From a virus, in the IMG/VR virus record IMGVR_UViG_3300023223_000354, positions 1-20,560 of that record: a stretch of DNA of 20,560 bases; one strand, given 5' to 3'. Below are positions 1 to 19,728 of the stretch, in pieces. Under the pieces are notes generated by a model, which did no database searches, was not told the DNA's origin, and saw only the letters and a program-made list of their open reading frames with translations. The translations under genes and the position numbers were made by a program. Position 1 is the first letter of the stretch. The number at the start of each line of letters is the position of its first letter.

Positions 1-140
1 CTTAAACCCTAATCCCTTATCCTTGACACTCTTATTTAACCCTAATCCGTCAACCCTAAACCCTATCCCTCAACCCCAACCCTCAACCCTATCCCTAAAC
101 CCTTGACCCTCGAACCTCAACCCTCAACCCTTTCCTCAAT
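1..140. repeat. Degenerate telomere-like C-rich array (CCCTAA/CCCTCAA variants)
   Basis: About thirteen CCCT units occur in the first 140 bases, mostly as AACCCTAA, AACCCTCAA and AACCCTATCCCT, at irregular 6-9 base spacing. The plus strand is C-rich, so the minus strand carries repeated TTAGGG/TTGAGGG-like runs able to form G-quadruplexes. No reading frame makes a plausible protein. The array lies at the window edge and upstream of the terminase genes. It could be part of a phage end or packaging region, a recombination-prone intergenic repeat, or a low-complexity contig edge; the sequence alone does not decide. Confidence 0.8.
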
Positions 141-177: not shown

Positions 178-269
178 GGGTGTAAAAATGGGGGTATTTC
201 TTTTTGATCTCACCTGATTTCGGTCAACTAGCACACAGTAGTTTTGACACATGCCCATTTTTTACCCCC
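178..269. repeat. Imperfect long inverted repeat with nested dyad
   Basis: The left arm GGGTGTAAAAATGGG (178-192) pairs with the right arm CCCATTTTTTACCCCC (254-269), with one extra T in the right arm and one mismatch. Inside the loop, GTCAACTA (223-230) faces TAG-TT-TTGAC (239-248), giving 5+3 pairs around a two-base bulge. This could fold as a cruciform or extended hairpin. No T-tract follows, so it is not a classical terminator. Confidence 0.45.
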
Positions 270-316
270 CGGGTGCCCGTGCCCTCTCCCCCTCCCAGTG
301 CTAGTAGTTCTCAGCC

Positions 317-368: not shown

Positions 369-377
369 TGATATAAT
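369..377 (+). promoter_or_regulatory. Perfect extended -10 promoter (TGnTATAAT)
   Basis: TGATATAAT is a full match to the extended -10 consensus (TG, one base, TATAAT), which can work without a good -35. A start site seven bases after the box falls on base 384, the A of the first ATG, predicting a leaderless message. No Shine-Dalgarno sequence lies just upstream of that ATG, which fits. It is likely the main late promoter for the terminase and head genes. Confidence 0.5.
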
Positions 378-380
378 GAG

Positions 381-398
381 TCCATGTCAAAACATGGA
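381..398 (+). promoter_or_regulatory. Perfect 7-bp dyad over the first start codon
   Basis: TCCATGT (381-387) and ACATGGA (392-398) are perfect inverted repeats around the loop CAAA, and the ATG at 384 lies inside the left arm. As DNA it is a compact operator-like dyad over the predicted transcription start. As RNA from an upstream promoter it would hide the start codon. Either would regulate the first gene; chance occurrence is possible. Confidence 0.4.
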
Positions 399-764
399 GA
401 CAAAGACAGTAACTTTGAACAATACTTGGTCAGTATGTTAGATGATTTTAACAAGTTTAAGAAATATGAACGAGTTATGGGTGATCTGATGGCAATGGTA
501 CAGAAAGGTGCCACTGTTGAATCTATATACGAGAAGTATGGCCCGGCTCTGGCCGCCCGAATGGTTATGATGGGGTTGAGTAGCAAAGATCCTAAACAAG
601 CCATTACCATGATTAAGGAAATTCACGATAGATCTCTCGGAAAGTCTAAAGAACGGCAGGAGATCTCTCATAAATTCGAGAATACGAGTGATAAGGAACT
701 TGACCGTCTAATTAATTCTGAAGAAGAACAGGTAGAGGGGCTCGAAAAAGAAAAAGTTCACTAA
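384..764 (+). CDS. Putative terminase small subunit
   Basis: This 126 aa protein is mostly helical and charged, with a Glu/Lys-rich C-terminus (EEEQVEGLEKEKVH). I infer that it is the small terminase subunit from position: it directly precedes the large terminase gene by three bases, and small subunits of about 100-180 aa usually sit there, bind the packaging site and recruit the large subunit. The central part (residues about 33-80, around MAMVQKGATVESIYEKYGPA) could hold a helix-turn-helix, as in small subunits that bind DNA, but I see no diagnostic motif. The start lacks a Shine-Dalgarno site; an extended -10 box and a dyad overlap it, suggesting leaderless or structured initiation. It could instead be an unrelated early-late gene. 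Confidence 0.5.
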   Translation: MSKHGDKDSNFEQYLVSMLDDFNKFKKYERVMGDLMAMVQKGATVESIYEKYGPALAARMVMMGLSSKDPKQAITMIKEIHDRSLGKSKERQEISHKFENTSDKELDRLINSEEEQVEGLEKEKVH

Positions 765-767
765 TCT

Positions 768-2198
768 ATGGATAGAGATGCTAAAATTCAGAAGCTGGAA
801 GCTCTGAGAGAAAAAAGAAGGCGCCTCATCGCTTCGCGCCCCGATTACACTCCAAACTCAGGACAAAAACAAGTACATAAAAGCCAGGCTTTGGTTAGGT
901 TTGTTGCTTCAGGCAATGGAGCTGGCAAGACTACAGGGGCTATTCAAGAAACTCGCTGGATGGCCTACGGCGACCACCCATATCGAAAAGTCCCGCCATT
1001 ACCGACACGTACTGTGGTTGTTCTAGATCACCCAGATAAAGTCAAGGATAAGTGGCTACCGGAACTGCGTAAATGGGTTAAGGTTGATGAGAAGTGGCTG
1101 AAAAAGAATGGGCGGCCATATGTGAACGAGATAACATGGCCGAACGGGTCCATTACGAAGTTCATGTTCCATGAACAGCCAGAGATGGTGTTTGAATCTT
1201 CTGAAGCGGACGCATACATTTTTGATGAACCCCCGCCCAGACATGCCTATATCGCATCGCGACGTGGCGGACGTTTGAAACACCGCCCTGCCTGGTACCT
1301 CATAGTTGGAACCCCGTTAGCGCAGCGTTGGATCCGAAAAGAGATTTACGAACCTTGGAAGCGTGGCAAACGTGATAATTTTGAGTGTTTTCGCTGGGAG
1401 AGTCAGATTAATGAAAGTAACCTTGCTGATGGGTACTTACATAGTTTTGCTAGGGATTTGACAGATCAAGAAAAGGAGATTCGTCTCAGAGGGAGATTCT
1501 TTGATTTGGATGGGTTGGCTTTGGCGCACTTATTTGATTACAAGACTCACGTAGTTGACCCTTGGAAATGGCCCGAAGGGTGGCCATGCGTTTTAGTTAT
1601 TGATCCACACCCTAATAAACACCACGTTGCGGTGATAATTGGAAGTGACCGAGATAGCAATCTCTTTGTTATTGCTGAGCATTCTTCAAGCTCCCATGCT
1701 GCTAAATTCGCTAAGGAATTACGGAATGGTATAATGGGGGGGAAACGAATTGTGGACCACGTTTGCGACAGTTATGGTTCAGGTAAGACTACGGGCGGGG
1801 ATGAACGCCTTTCGTTCATAGAGGTATTAAATACCAATGGAATACCCGTAAGAGCTACTACCTACGATGAAAAAGCTGACGAAGTCTTCATTGAAAAAAT
1901 TAGGAATGCCTTGGTTATCCCGGAAAATGCTGATAACTTTGGCAATAAGATACCTAGGCTTAGGTTTTTTAGCAGCTGTCCTCGCTCTATCGATGATGTG
2001 GAGAACGTAAGCTGGATGAAATATAAAGGTATTAATGAATTTAAACCTAAACTTGATATTACAAACTGTGATTTCTTAGCTTGCATTAAATATGGATTGG
2101 CATCTGGGATTTGTTTTATAAAAGGCCGAGCTAGGAGCTATAAGAGAAAGAAACTTGTATCTTCTTATGGCCAAAGACTAAGAGTTAAGAACCTATGA
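768..2198 (+). CDS. terL: Terminase large subunit (packaging ATPase and nuclease)
   Basis: This is the motor that pumps DNA into the prohead and cuts the concatemer. The N-terminal ATPase shows a Walker A loop GNGAGKTTG at residues 49-57, a Walker B with catalytic Glu at 148-154 (DAYIFDE, D153/E154), and a coupling motif IVGTP near 179-183. The C-terminal RNase H-like nuclease shows the expected acidic residues: D279 in VLVIDPHP, D334 in HVCDSYG, and D430 or D435 in LDITNCDFLA. At 476 aa it is an ordinary length for the family and appears intact. The gene follows the small-subunit candidate by three bases and its stop overlaps the portal start (ATGA), so translation is probably coupled. Confidence 0.95.
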   Translation: MDRDAKIQKLEALREKRRRLIASRPDYTPNSGQKQVHKSQALVRFVASGNGAGKTTGAIQETRWMAYGDHPYRKVPPLPTRTVVVLDHPDKVKDKWLPELRKWVKVDEKWLKKNGRPYVNEITWPNGSITKFMFHEQPEMVFESSEADAYIFDEPPPRHAYIASRRGGRLKHRPAWYLIVGTPLAQRWIRKEIYEPWKRGKRDNFECFRWESQINESNLADGYLHSFARDLTDQEKEIRLRGRFFDLDGLALAHLFDYKTHVVDPWKWPEGWPCVLVIDPHPNKHHVAVIIGSDRDSNLFVIAEHSSSSHAAKFAKELRNGIMGGKRIVDHVCDSYGSGKTTGGDERLSFIEVLNTNGIPVRATTYDEKADEVFIEKIRNALVIPENADNFGNKIPRLRFFSSCPRSIDDVENVSWMKYKGINEFKPKLDITNCDFLACIKYGLASGICFIKGRARSYKRKKLVSSYGQRLRVKNL

Positions 2199-4399
2199 GT
2201 AGCGATTTCCCACAAGATATTCAAGAACGTTCTGAACGTAATAAAATTGCAGATCCGCAAATAATCGTCCCGCTTAGGGATCAAATTCCCAAGAAATTGC
2301 TGAAAGCGTTGAAGGATGCCGACATAGGCAAGATTATTTCAGACATATGGCATAAAGGGAATGCTGAAAGACAACAATGGCTTGATAAACAAAAAACTCT
2401 TATGGCTCAATGGGATGATTTTGTAGCTAATCTTCCTGAAGGTCCTTTTGACGGGGCTTCTCAACTGCACCTTCCCACTACGTTTGTTCATGCCAAGGCT
2501 ATACACGCTCGTCTCATGGAGGCTTTATTTGGAATTGAACCTCCTTTCGTAACTAAAGCTAAAAGGGAGCAGGAAACTACTCGACTCGATATGATTGATG
2601 CCATCATGAAGCATGCCATCATGGAGTGGGCGAATCATAACGAAGGGATGAAAGAAGTCATCTCTGATTGGGTATGGGATTATGTCACTTCAGGTGTAGG
2701 GCTGCTTAAGGGGAGATGGGTACGAGAATACACGAGTTTTGTGGATGTTGAAGAGACTGTGGAAGTAGAAGAGATTGAAGGGGACGAATCTGGACTCCCC
2801 CCGGATATACGTATTGTTGAAAAGGAAGTGCTGAGAAAGATAAAGTCGTTTGATGGCCCAGAAGTTGAGCTTGTACGTCCAGAAGACTTACTAATTGTTG
2901 GTGGAGGCGGTAATGTTCAGAGGGCTCACTCTTTGATACACAGACAATGGCTCACAGCTTCGGAGTTGTGGAGTTTGACAGACCAAGAGATCTTTGATGC
3001 CGACGCAGTTGAGAAAACTATTCAGTTTGGAGAGAGTTTGAAGTCTTCGGCCATAGGTGGAGAGATTAAGCAAGATAGGGCGCTAAATACTGGCAAGACC
3101 AATGCAGATAGTGAAGCTGATCTTAGACAGTATGAAATTCTTGAGACATACATGCAGCACGATGTTAACAAAGATGGTATTAATGAAGAGATTATTGTAT
3201 GGACTCATAAAGAGACTAATGCAGTGCTTAGAGCCACCTACCTTAGACGTGCTTCGCAATACGGTGTCCGCCCATTTTTCAAAGCAGACTTTCATCGACG
3301 CTCCGGAGAAGATTATGGTGTGGGGATGGTGGAGATGATGTTTTCACTCAGCCTCGAGCAAGACGCTATGCATAATCAAGCTGTTGACGCCGGAACAATC
3401 CGAAATATGCCGTTTGGCTTTTATCGCGCCTCATCATCTCTTGATCCAGAAATTATTGATTTAGTACCAGGTGCGATGTATCCGGTGGATAATCCACAAC
3501 AGGATATATTGTTTCCTCGTGTGAATGGGGGGCATTCTTTTAATTTACAGATGTCTCAAGTAATTCAGGATCAGATTAATCGTTTGACCGGAATATCGGA
3601 TCTGAATTTTGGTCAACTTAGTGCTCAAGGGGCGGCTCGTACCGCAACCGGAACTCGAGCCCTACTTGGAGAAAGTAACATTAACCTAAACGTCCCTTTA
3701 GGTAATCTTGCAAGGCCTTGGAGGCAATGCTTACGTTTTATTTTTTCAATGCTTCAAAAGAATATTCCTACTGGTTATTCATTCCGTATAACCGGTGAGT
3801 TGGGCGAAGACTATTGGATGCAAATTAAAGATAAACAAGATTTAGAGGGTCAATTTGATTTTGATATTTCTGAAAATTCAGCGAACTCAAACCGAGCGAT
3901 ACAACAGCAAGTTGCACAACAGATCAACGCCATCACTGCCGATCCAGTGGCGATTCAGACCGGTGTGGTGAATCAGTCTGGGATTTTTGAATCTAAAAAA
4001 CTTCTACTTCAGTCTTTGGGAGTGAAAGATTGGTCTCGTTATATTACTAAACCAGACACGTCCAGAAGAGTGTTAACGCCGGGTGAAGAGGTTGCTAGAA
4101 TTTTGGCCGGAATCACTGTCAAAGTCCAATTGGGCGACGACCACCAGGGATTTATTGAATTAGTGGAAGAAATGTTAAAAAGTGATGAAGTGGCACAAGC
4201 CCATACGATAGAACAGTTGGGTCTTTTAAGAGCCCAAGCTGCGGAGCACGTCCGGGCGTTGCAAGCGTTCGAGCAGTTGCAAGCGCAAGCTAGGTCTAGG
4301 GCTCAGGTGAGTGCAAATCAAACTTCAACTGAGCAGACCACGGAACCGGTACCGCAGCAAGAGGCTCAACAAGCACCGCAAGGAGAGACGGGTGAGTAG
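2195..4399 (+). CDS. Portal protein (P22-like size)
   Basis: This 734 aa protein is assigned as the dodecameric portal at the capsid vertex through which DNA enters and leaves. The order (directly after the large terminase, before scaffold and capsid), the length close to that of the P22 portal, and features such as the Trp-rich helices at residues about 50-75 and 140-170 (SDWVWDYVTSGVGLLKGRW) support this. The C-terminal 80 residues are Gln/Ala/Glu-rich (LQAQARSRAQ then QQEAQQAPQ), consistent with the helical barrel that projects into the head in long portals. An acidic linker (VDVEETVEVEEIEGDE, near 185-200) is probably an exposed loop. The gene starts in an ATGA overlap with terL, and its 3' end overlaps a GTG-started small gene. 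Confidence 0.88.
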   Translation: MSSDFPQDIQERSERNKIADPQIIVPLRDQIPKKLLKALKDADIGKIISDIWHKGNAERQQWLDKQKTLMAQWDDFVANLPEGPFDGASQLHLPTTFVHAKAIHARLMEALFGIEPPFVTKAKREQETTRLDMIDAIMKHAIMEWANHNEGMKEVISDWVWDYVTSGVGLLKGRWVREYTSFVDVEETVEVEEIEGDESGLPPDIRIVEKEVLRKIKSFDGPEVELVRPEDLLIVGGGGNVQRAHSLIHRQWLTASELWSLTDQEIFDADAVEKTIQFGESLKSSAIGGEIKQDRALNTGKTNADSEADLRQYEILETYMQHDVNKDGINEEIIVWTHKETNAVLRATYLRRASQYGVRPFFKADFHRRSGEDYGVGMVEMMFSLSLEQDAMHNQAVDAGTIRNMPFGFYRASSSLDPEIIDLVPGAMYPVDNPQQDILFPRVNGGHSFNLQMSQVIQDQINRLTGISDLNFGQLSAQGAARTATGTRALLGESNINLNVPLGNLARPWRQCLRFIFSMLQKNIPTGYSFRITGELGEDYWMQIKDKQDLEGQFDFDISENSANSNRAIQQQVAQQINAITADPVAIQTGVVNQSGIFESKKLLLQSLGVKDWSRYITKPDTSRRVLTPGEEVARILAGITVKVQLGDDHQGFIELVEEMLKSDEVAQAHTIEQLGLLRAQAAEHVRALQAFEQLQAQARSRAQVSANQTSTEQTTEPVPQQEAQQAPQGETGE

Positions 4400-19044: not shown

Positions 19045-19728
19045 TTATTTCTGGTCTAAAAATTCTCGCACAGTCTCTAATGGAATCAAAGCCCCAAACC
19101 CCCCTTGACTCGCCACGACCACGGCAACGAGTTCCCCATCCATATTCACCACTGGTGACCCACTCTGTCCCGGAGCCACAAACATGGTAGATATTATAAG
19201 GTCCCCCTGCCAAAAACACAAAAAGGGTAAAGATCTATCCCTAATAGTCCCCCTAGGGCATCTTTCCCCCGGAATGGTTATTCCTGCCAATATCTCTACA
19301 AAGTCTTCATAGAACAGTATGCCAGTCACTACAACGGGTCCTTGAGCCTTTGGGTACCCCCCAGAAACGATTCTTTCTCCAAGATGGTACTCCTGGGCTA
19401 GGCGTAGTGCCTTAAGGCCGTCGGGGGCCTCTAGGAGGCACAGATCCCGTTCTGGATCTCTTCTCAGCACTTTCAACTTTCCAACCCGGAGGCCATCAAA
19501 TGAGATGGTTTTATATGATTTCTTATGACATACGTGTGAATTAGACAGCACATATCGCTGCCCCTTATAAGAGATGATGCCACCGGTCCCTGTCCCCATC
19601 TCGTCCGAGACTTTGACAACGCTACGCGGTAACGCCTTTTTCCGCATTTCAAGGCGGATCACCGGGTAGATGAGGTATAGAATCATGATCATATTTAAAG
19701 GGATTAGGGTTAGGGCTAATTTTTTCAT
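19045..19728 (-). CDS. Membrane-anchored trypsin-like serine protease
   Basis: This 227 aa protein has an N-terminal membrane anchor or uncleaved signal (residues 4-23, LALTLIPLNMIMILYLIYPV) and a chymotrypsin-fold domain. The triad is visible: His65 in VLSNSHVC, Asp95 in RDLCLLE, and Ser189 in GQSGSPVV. A glycine-rich GTGTGGIIS strand precedes the His, as in HtrA/Do-type and other bacterial trypsin-like proteases, but no PDZ domain follows. Cys 67, 97, 157 and 171 could form disulfides if the domain lies outside the cytoplasm. It starts in ATGA overlap with the cysteine-cluster gene (site GAGG seven bases upstream). Such proteases occur in some phage genomes; the target is unknown, and envelope proteolysis at infection or lysis is my inference. 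Confidence 0.85.
   Translation of the reverse strand: MKKLALTLIPLNMIMILYLIYPVIRLEMRKKALPRSVVKVSDEMGTGTGGIISYKGQRYVLSNSHVCHKKSYKTISFDGLRVGKLKVLRRDPERDLCLLEAPDGLKALRLAQEYHLGERIVSGGYPKAQGPVVVTGILFYEDFVEILAGITIPGERCPRGTIRDRSLPFLCFWQGDLIISTMFVAPGQSGSPVVNMDGELVAVVVASQGGFGALIPLETVREFLDQK

Follow-up and report, generated by a model that had tools for sequence, protein, structure and literature searches.

A degenerate CCCTNAA-type heptamer array upstream of phage terminase genes, best read as a G-rich intergenic repeat of bacterial type

The window analysed here, a virus record of an uncultured phage with 20,560 bases, begins at its first base with a degenerate array of CCCTNAA-type heptamers. The array is probably (at roughly 60%) a worn example of an already described class, the G-rich heptameric intergenic simple-sequence repeats, here of GGGTTNA / CCCTNAA type, situated in a noncoding spacer upstream of the phage packaging operon. 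This reading is favored by the heptamer unit, the segmental duplication within the array and its strong departure from shuffled sequence. The C-rich sense placement of purer arrays near start codons matches that of bacterial G-rich heptamers in the part of the survey cited here (PMC4692102), and a general link to the large terminase (TerL) was not found. The coordinates of all features are collected in Table 1.

The tetramer CCCT is present 13 times in bases 1-140, in agreement with the approximately thirteen units claimed by the first-pass annotation. This number was never reached in 2000 local dinucleotide shuffles (mean 5.5, maximum 10), and the 12 copies of AACCCT or ATCCCT in the array compare with a shuffle mean of 0.8 and a maximum of 5. 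Across 50 whole-window shuffles no 140 bases held more than five CCCT, and elsewhere in the window no 140-base stretch on either strand contains more than four. The observation of the array is confirmed. Its 140-base region comprises 62 C and 4 G. TRF reported a period of 7 with 13.9 copies and 75% matches at bases 38-131, and a period of 41 with 2.1 copies for the higher-order repeat. The C-runs follow each other at distances of 7, 26, 14, 7, 6, 7, 6, 7, 6, 7, 7, 14, and 7 bases, which makes seven bases the prevailing unit, with slips to six; the heptamer pattern is broken at bases 18-39. Judging from this structure, the array most likely originated by seven-base slippage, duplication of a block of about 40 bases and point mutation.

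Plus-strand frame 2 has an open stretch of 34 codons that starts at base 2 and closes with a TGA, but no evidence for a gene was found and the stretch was taken as chance. An RNA family search of bases 1-800 gave nothing at the gathering threshold. A BLAST search of bases 1-767 against 50,697 phage records gave no match, which says little on the array itself because low-complexity sequence was masked. A second telomere-like stretch, AACCCTAATCCCT, lies at 19699-19711 on the minus strand in the start of a trypsin-like protease gene (19045-19728, PF13365), where its occurrence in the hydrophobic leader of the protease is probably chance.

Table 1. Features of the array, the adjoining spacer and the packaging genes in the window
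Feature	Position	Strand	Basis
Degenerate CCCTNAA-type heptamer array	1..135	+ C-rich, - G-rich	Repeat and shuffle analysis
Higher-order repeat, two blocks of ~40 bases, 86% alike	54..135	+	TRF period 41; 26-base family, 13-base steps
Predicted G-quadruplex motif in array	61..82	-	G3 runs, loops 1-7
Predicted G-quadruplex motif in array	87..109	-	G3 runs, loops 1-7
GC-rich block, near-identical in L001; candidate cos/pac site (putative function)	259..305	+	Alignment with L001
Third predicted G-quadruplex motif, inside the GC-rich block	276..296	-	G3 runs, loops 1-7
TGNTATAAT, extended -10-like, just before terS	369..377	+	Alignment; identical in L001 and L002
Putative small terminase gene (terS)	384..764	+	ORF; named from position
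Large terminase gene (TerL)	768..2198	+	phrog_2, E 2.7e-5; 38.5% identity to annotated large terminase of MW202601
Portal protein gene, SU10/P22-like	2195..4399	+	phrog_1216; PF23899, E 1.6e-33

The spacer between the array and the putative terS gene spans approximately 248-249 noncoding bases. The product of the terS ORF matched no PHROG and no Pfam family, and relatives of it precede TerL in L001, L002, L099, L100, L101, L103, and L105. The nearest relative is the contig L001, whose TerL is 83% identical and whose alignment with the window begins at about base 222. An exact search for a 21-base conserved block matched the L001 contig alone. Compared with the block, a similar C-rich stretch in L101 reached a local alignment score of 23, within the range of shuffles (maximum 27), and no homology is claimed. 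A GC-rich motif of the GGCGCGT-ACC type recurs in the terS-upstream spacer of many relatives, about 550-860 bases before TerL (L099, L104, L306, L309, L310, L315, L107, L109, L111, L114, L117, and MW202601). The motif expression was composed after reading the sequences counted, and the motif is only a lead to a possible packaging site of the family. The claim that the array adjoins a packaging region is thus supported in part, by the GC-rich block kept in L001 and by the GC-rich spacer element of many relatives. In L100 an ORF lies between terS and TerL that presumably carries an HNH-like motif; an HNH-type ORF in this place is an arrangement as in cos-type phages. In the loci of several relatives the strongest C-rich window lies upstream of TerL. 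This C-over-G asymmetry was not counted as evidence, because the sense strand of coding DNA is purine-rich.

With strict G-quadruplex (G4) motifs defined as runs of three G with loops of 1-7, the whole window contains three, all on the minus strand and all in the terS-upstream spacer. Two of the three lie in the array, and the prediction thereby bears out the statement that its minus strand is G4-prone. The G4Hunter score of the array is predicted to reach 1.8. As RNA, the plus strand is predicted to be almost unstructured (-2.0 kcal/mol over 140 bases), whereas the minus strand goes from -12.7 to -29.2 kcal/mol once quadruplexes are allowed. The G-rich strand is the template strand of the terminase genes and would, by prediction, fold into quadruplexes when single-stranded. 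A TATAAT-like site that is conserved ahead of terS lies between the array and the gene, so the array is probably outside the terS leader RNA. Should TGNTATAAT, which a promoter scan did not list, serve as the promoter, transcription of terS would begin downstream of the array. Any effect of the array would be local, for example slowing of transcription or replication entering from upstream.

Other phages and bacteria were surveyed with a clean pattern of three CCCTNAA units. The array of the window does not contain this pattern, so the comparison is with purer arrays, and membership in the class rests on unit, composition, orientation, and place. The clean pattern was present in 93 IMG/VR stretches, as compared with 48 for a permuted heptamer of equal composition, and in at least 115 stretches of bacterial genomes. 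The bacterial titles among the matches listed include Bacteroidota, Verrucomicrobia, Planctomycetes, Lentisphaerae, Acidobacteria, Desulfobacterales, Gammaproteobacteria, and others. The view that such arrays are unusual in phages therefore fails for the clean repeat but stands for the density of 13 CCCT per 140 bases, which only 5 of the 93 IMG/VR loci reached. Counting identical flanks and hits within 200 bases once gave 89 distinct phage arrays, of which 30 lie inside ORFs, 34 between codirectional genes, 14 between divergent or convergent genes, and 11 at edges. The C-rich strand was the sense strand in 30 of the 34 codirectional intergenic arrays. Within 60 bases of a start codon it was sense in 28 of the distinct arrays and antisense in 3. 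The matching counts for the control heptamer were 10 versus 4, and 8 versus 3 near start codons. The sense bias is clearer for CCCTNAA, yet it is present in the control heptamer too. The loci L011, L018, L039, L055, L082, L086, and L092 have similar flanks and clean CCCTAAA arrays of differing length at seemingly the same intergenic place, and provide a natural series for repeat growth.

A role of the array in packaging had been proposed in the first-pass annotation, along with a search for the same array before the small terminase gene of related phages. TerL relatives of 36-49% identity were gathered from two alignment-guided scans, and 27 distinct relatives, with near-duplicates counted once, included at least 400 bases of the interval from -1300 to -330 before TerL. 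The array was present in none of the 27, all of which showed at most five CCCT per 140 bases in this interval. The L001 and L002 contigs end before the place of the array, the former about 85 bases short of it. As far as these sequences tell, the array is shown not to be a conserved packaging element of the family at 36-49% TerL identity, the closer range lying outside this comparison. Among the 93 IMG/VR loci with clean arrays, the TerL search (phrog_2) covered 50, and 19 of these records have a detectable TerL. The clean array was within 2 kb of TerL in two of the 19 (G022 and G041, with flanks similar to each other) and at least 4.8 kb away in the other 17. A general link of such arrays to the terminase was thus ruled out: most of them lie at a distance from TerL, and the repeat does not mark packaging sites in general. 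On both counts the proposed packaging role is not supported.

The distribution of G4 motifs in the phage family was assessed in 36 records with loops of 1-12, leaving out the array of the window. Near-duplicates (L106, L108, L113, L305, L313, L323, and L324) were omitted here, and L118-L139 (22 loci, weak TerL relatives of 21-29% identity) as well as L322, L325, L326, and L327 (match starting inside TerL) were omitted both here and from the count of array absence. Of 15 motifs, eight fell in the terS-upstream interval, seven noncoding and one within a called ORF, and seven elsewhere. Among noncoding motifs, 7 of 9 were in the terS-upstream interval, which makes up 11,091 of 31,416 noncoding bases (Fisher p 0.011, with simple longest-ORF gene calls made by script). 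Taking only ORFs of at least 100 aa as coding gave p 0.002, and with loops of 1-7 the noncoding counts were 3 upstream of terS versus 0 elsewhere (p 0.04 or 0.02). The seven noncoding terS-upstream motifs belong to the window, L001, L101, L306 (two), L318, and L320, those of the window and L001 being shared by descent. The minus strand carries all eight terS-upstream motifs and also six of the seven elsewhere, and the strand bias is therefore not special to the terS-upstream place. The enrichment test was run with the window already known and is weak; the enrichment of minus-strand G4 motifs upstream of terS across the family is a modest lead.

The position at a contig edge leads to the question whether the array marks a genome end or an error of assembly. 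Of 42 contigs, 15 have their upstream end 50-1110 bases before TerL, where 5.1 are expected (P 4e-5). This clustering is carried by a first batch (11 of 22, 2.8 expected), whereas the second batch alone showed no excess (4 of 20, P 0.18). The positions of the ends vary between 158 and 1107 bases before TerL, in some cases inside terS, which rules out one shared physical contig end, and one fixed genome end is accordingly not shown. In the contig L002, bases 1-144 repeat bases 1246-1389, an internal TerL stretch; compared with the window, part of TerL is missing from the internal copy. Such a repeat suggests that the contig end is chimeric or that a rearrangement took place, and it warns that edge errors occur.

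Several alternatives to a G-rich heptameric repeat have to be weighed. Assembly might have lengthened the contig edge or fused it with repeat DNA from elsewhere, such as a CCCTAA-type repeat of bacterial or eukaryotic origin; such an artefact would account for an array that reaches the very first base, for bases 1-221 being found in no relative, and for the L001 contig stopping 85 bases short of the array, and the sister contig L002 does end with a misplaced piece of its own TerL. On the other hand, the higher-order duplication looks evolved rather than assembled, arrays of the same type are internal in other phage contigs, and the mixed, degenerate six- and seven-base units are not known to match any single telomere type; an artefact is unlikely, though it deserves to be taken seriously. 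That the array is the telomere of a linear phage genome or of a prophage plasmid is hardly credible. The CCCTAA/CCCTAAA units at the record end give the array a superficial telomere likeness, but a telomere or hairpin end is disfavored by bases 1-400, which contain no inverted repeat, and by the other end of the window, which like the rest of it carries no array (a weak point, as the record may be a fragment). In addition, the record of the relative MW202601 is complete and circular, and none of the 27 relatives compared has the array.

We consider it rather unlikely that the array is a working part of a packaging site or genome end, in which repeated TerS-binding or strand-asymmetric DNA would flank a cut site in the conserved GC-rich block and quadruplexes would mark or hold the end. 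The adjoining block, the confinement of the three strict G4 motifs of the window to the terS-upstream spacer, the noncoding G4 enrichment across the family and the clustering of contig ends all point toward such a role. They are outweighed by the lack of the array in the 27 relatives, by the rarity of kindred arrays near TerL, by the scatter of the contig ends with no excess in the second batch, and by the post hoc nature of the enrichment test. A broader proposal is improbable: the terS-upstream spacer of the family would be under pressure to be G4-prone on one strand, with lineages using different sequences, that of the window being a telomere-like heptamer array, and the quadruplex would help to start packaging, protect the ends or block read-through into the packaging genes. 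If the family-wide excess were confirmed in newly chosen records, one could test whether quadruplexes take part in phage packaging or the control of late genes. The reading as a worn G-rich heptameric repeat has points against it as well, namely that the surveys used purer arrays, that the control heptamer is also somewhat sense-biased near start codons, that the three G4 motifs of the window share one spacer, which would fit a special role, and that the array ends beyond the class-typical 0-50 bases from a gene (PMC4692102, in the part cited). It is nevertheless the best description of this telomere-looking sequence in a phage contig: a heptamer repeat of bacterial type, of a kind that is common to phages and bacteria and has a strand preference upstream of genes.

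Some viral systems resemble the array in part. In the cited part of PMC6572409, herpesvirus telomere-like repeats share with it GGG runs with short loops of TTA type and a place near the end of a viral genome, but they are exact TTAGGG-type repeats tied to host telomeres, whereas the array is a degenerate heptamer in a virus of bacteria. The SPP1 pac region, as described in the cited section of PMC6316719, likewise adjoins the small terminase gene and is recognition DNA for which TerS binding was shown, whereas the array is not conserved among the relatives compared. Other parallels are found in bacterial chromosomes. According to the portion of PMC2700814 used here, Geobacter metallireducens has runs of four or five heptanucleotides in tandem, spread over many sites of its genome, with a proposed regulatory function; these are tandem heptanucleotides like the array, but their units are GGGACCG and MTYCTGA and they form dispersed chromosomal families. 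In the part of Rehm et al. 2015 drawn on here (PMC4692102), G-rich heptamers, GGGNATC in Xanthomonas and GGGGA(C/T)T in Nostoc, are intergenic, with the G-rich strand antisense upstream of genes and mostly 0-50 bases away. The window differs from these in its unit, GGGTTNA, in its occurrence in a phage record, in greater degeneracy, and in a quadruplex that is predicted only. The distance to terS, 249 bases, exceeds the 50 bases that are a preference of the class and not a requirement, and there is one array in 20,560 bases in place of many dispersed copies, a weak test on a phage fragment for a class defined in chromosomes. The features shared with the repeats of Rehm et al. (PMC4692102, same part) are a seven-base unit with G-runs of at least three, seen as many minus-strand GGG runs at steps of 6-7 bases, at least four units predicted to form quadruplexes, with two strict motifs, and an intergenic place upstream of an ORF in which the G-rich strand is antisense and the C-rich strand sense for terS and TerL.
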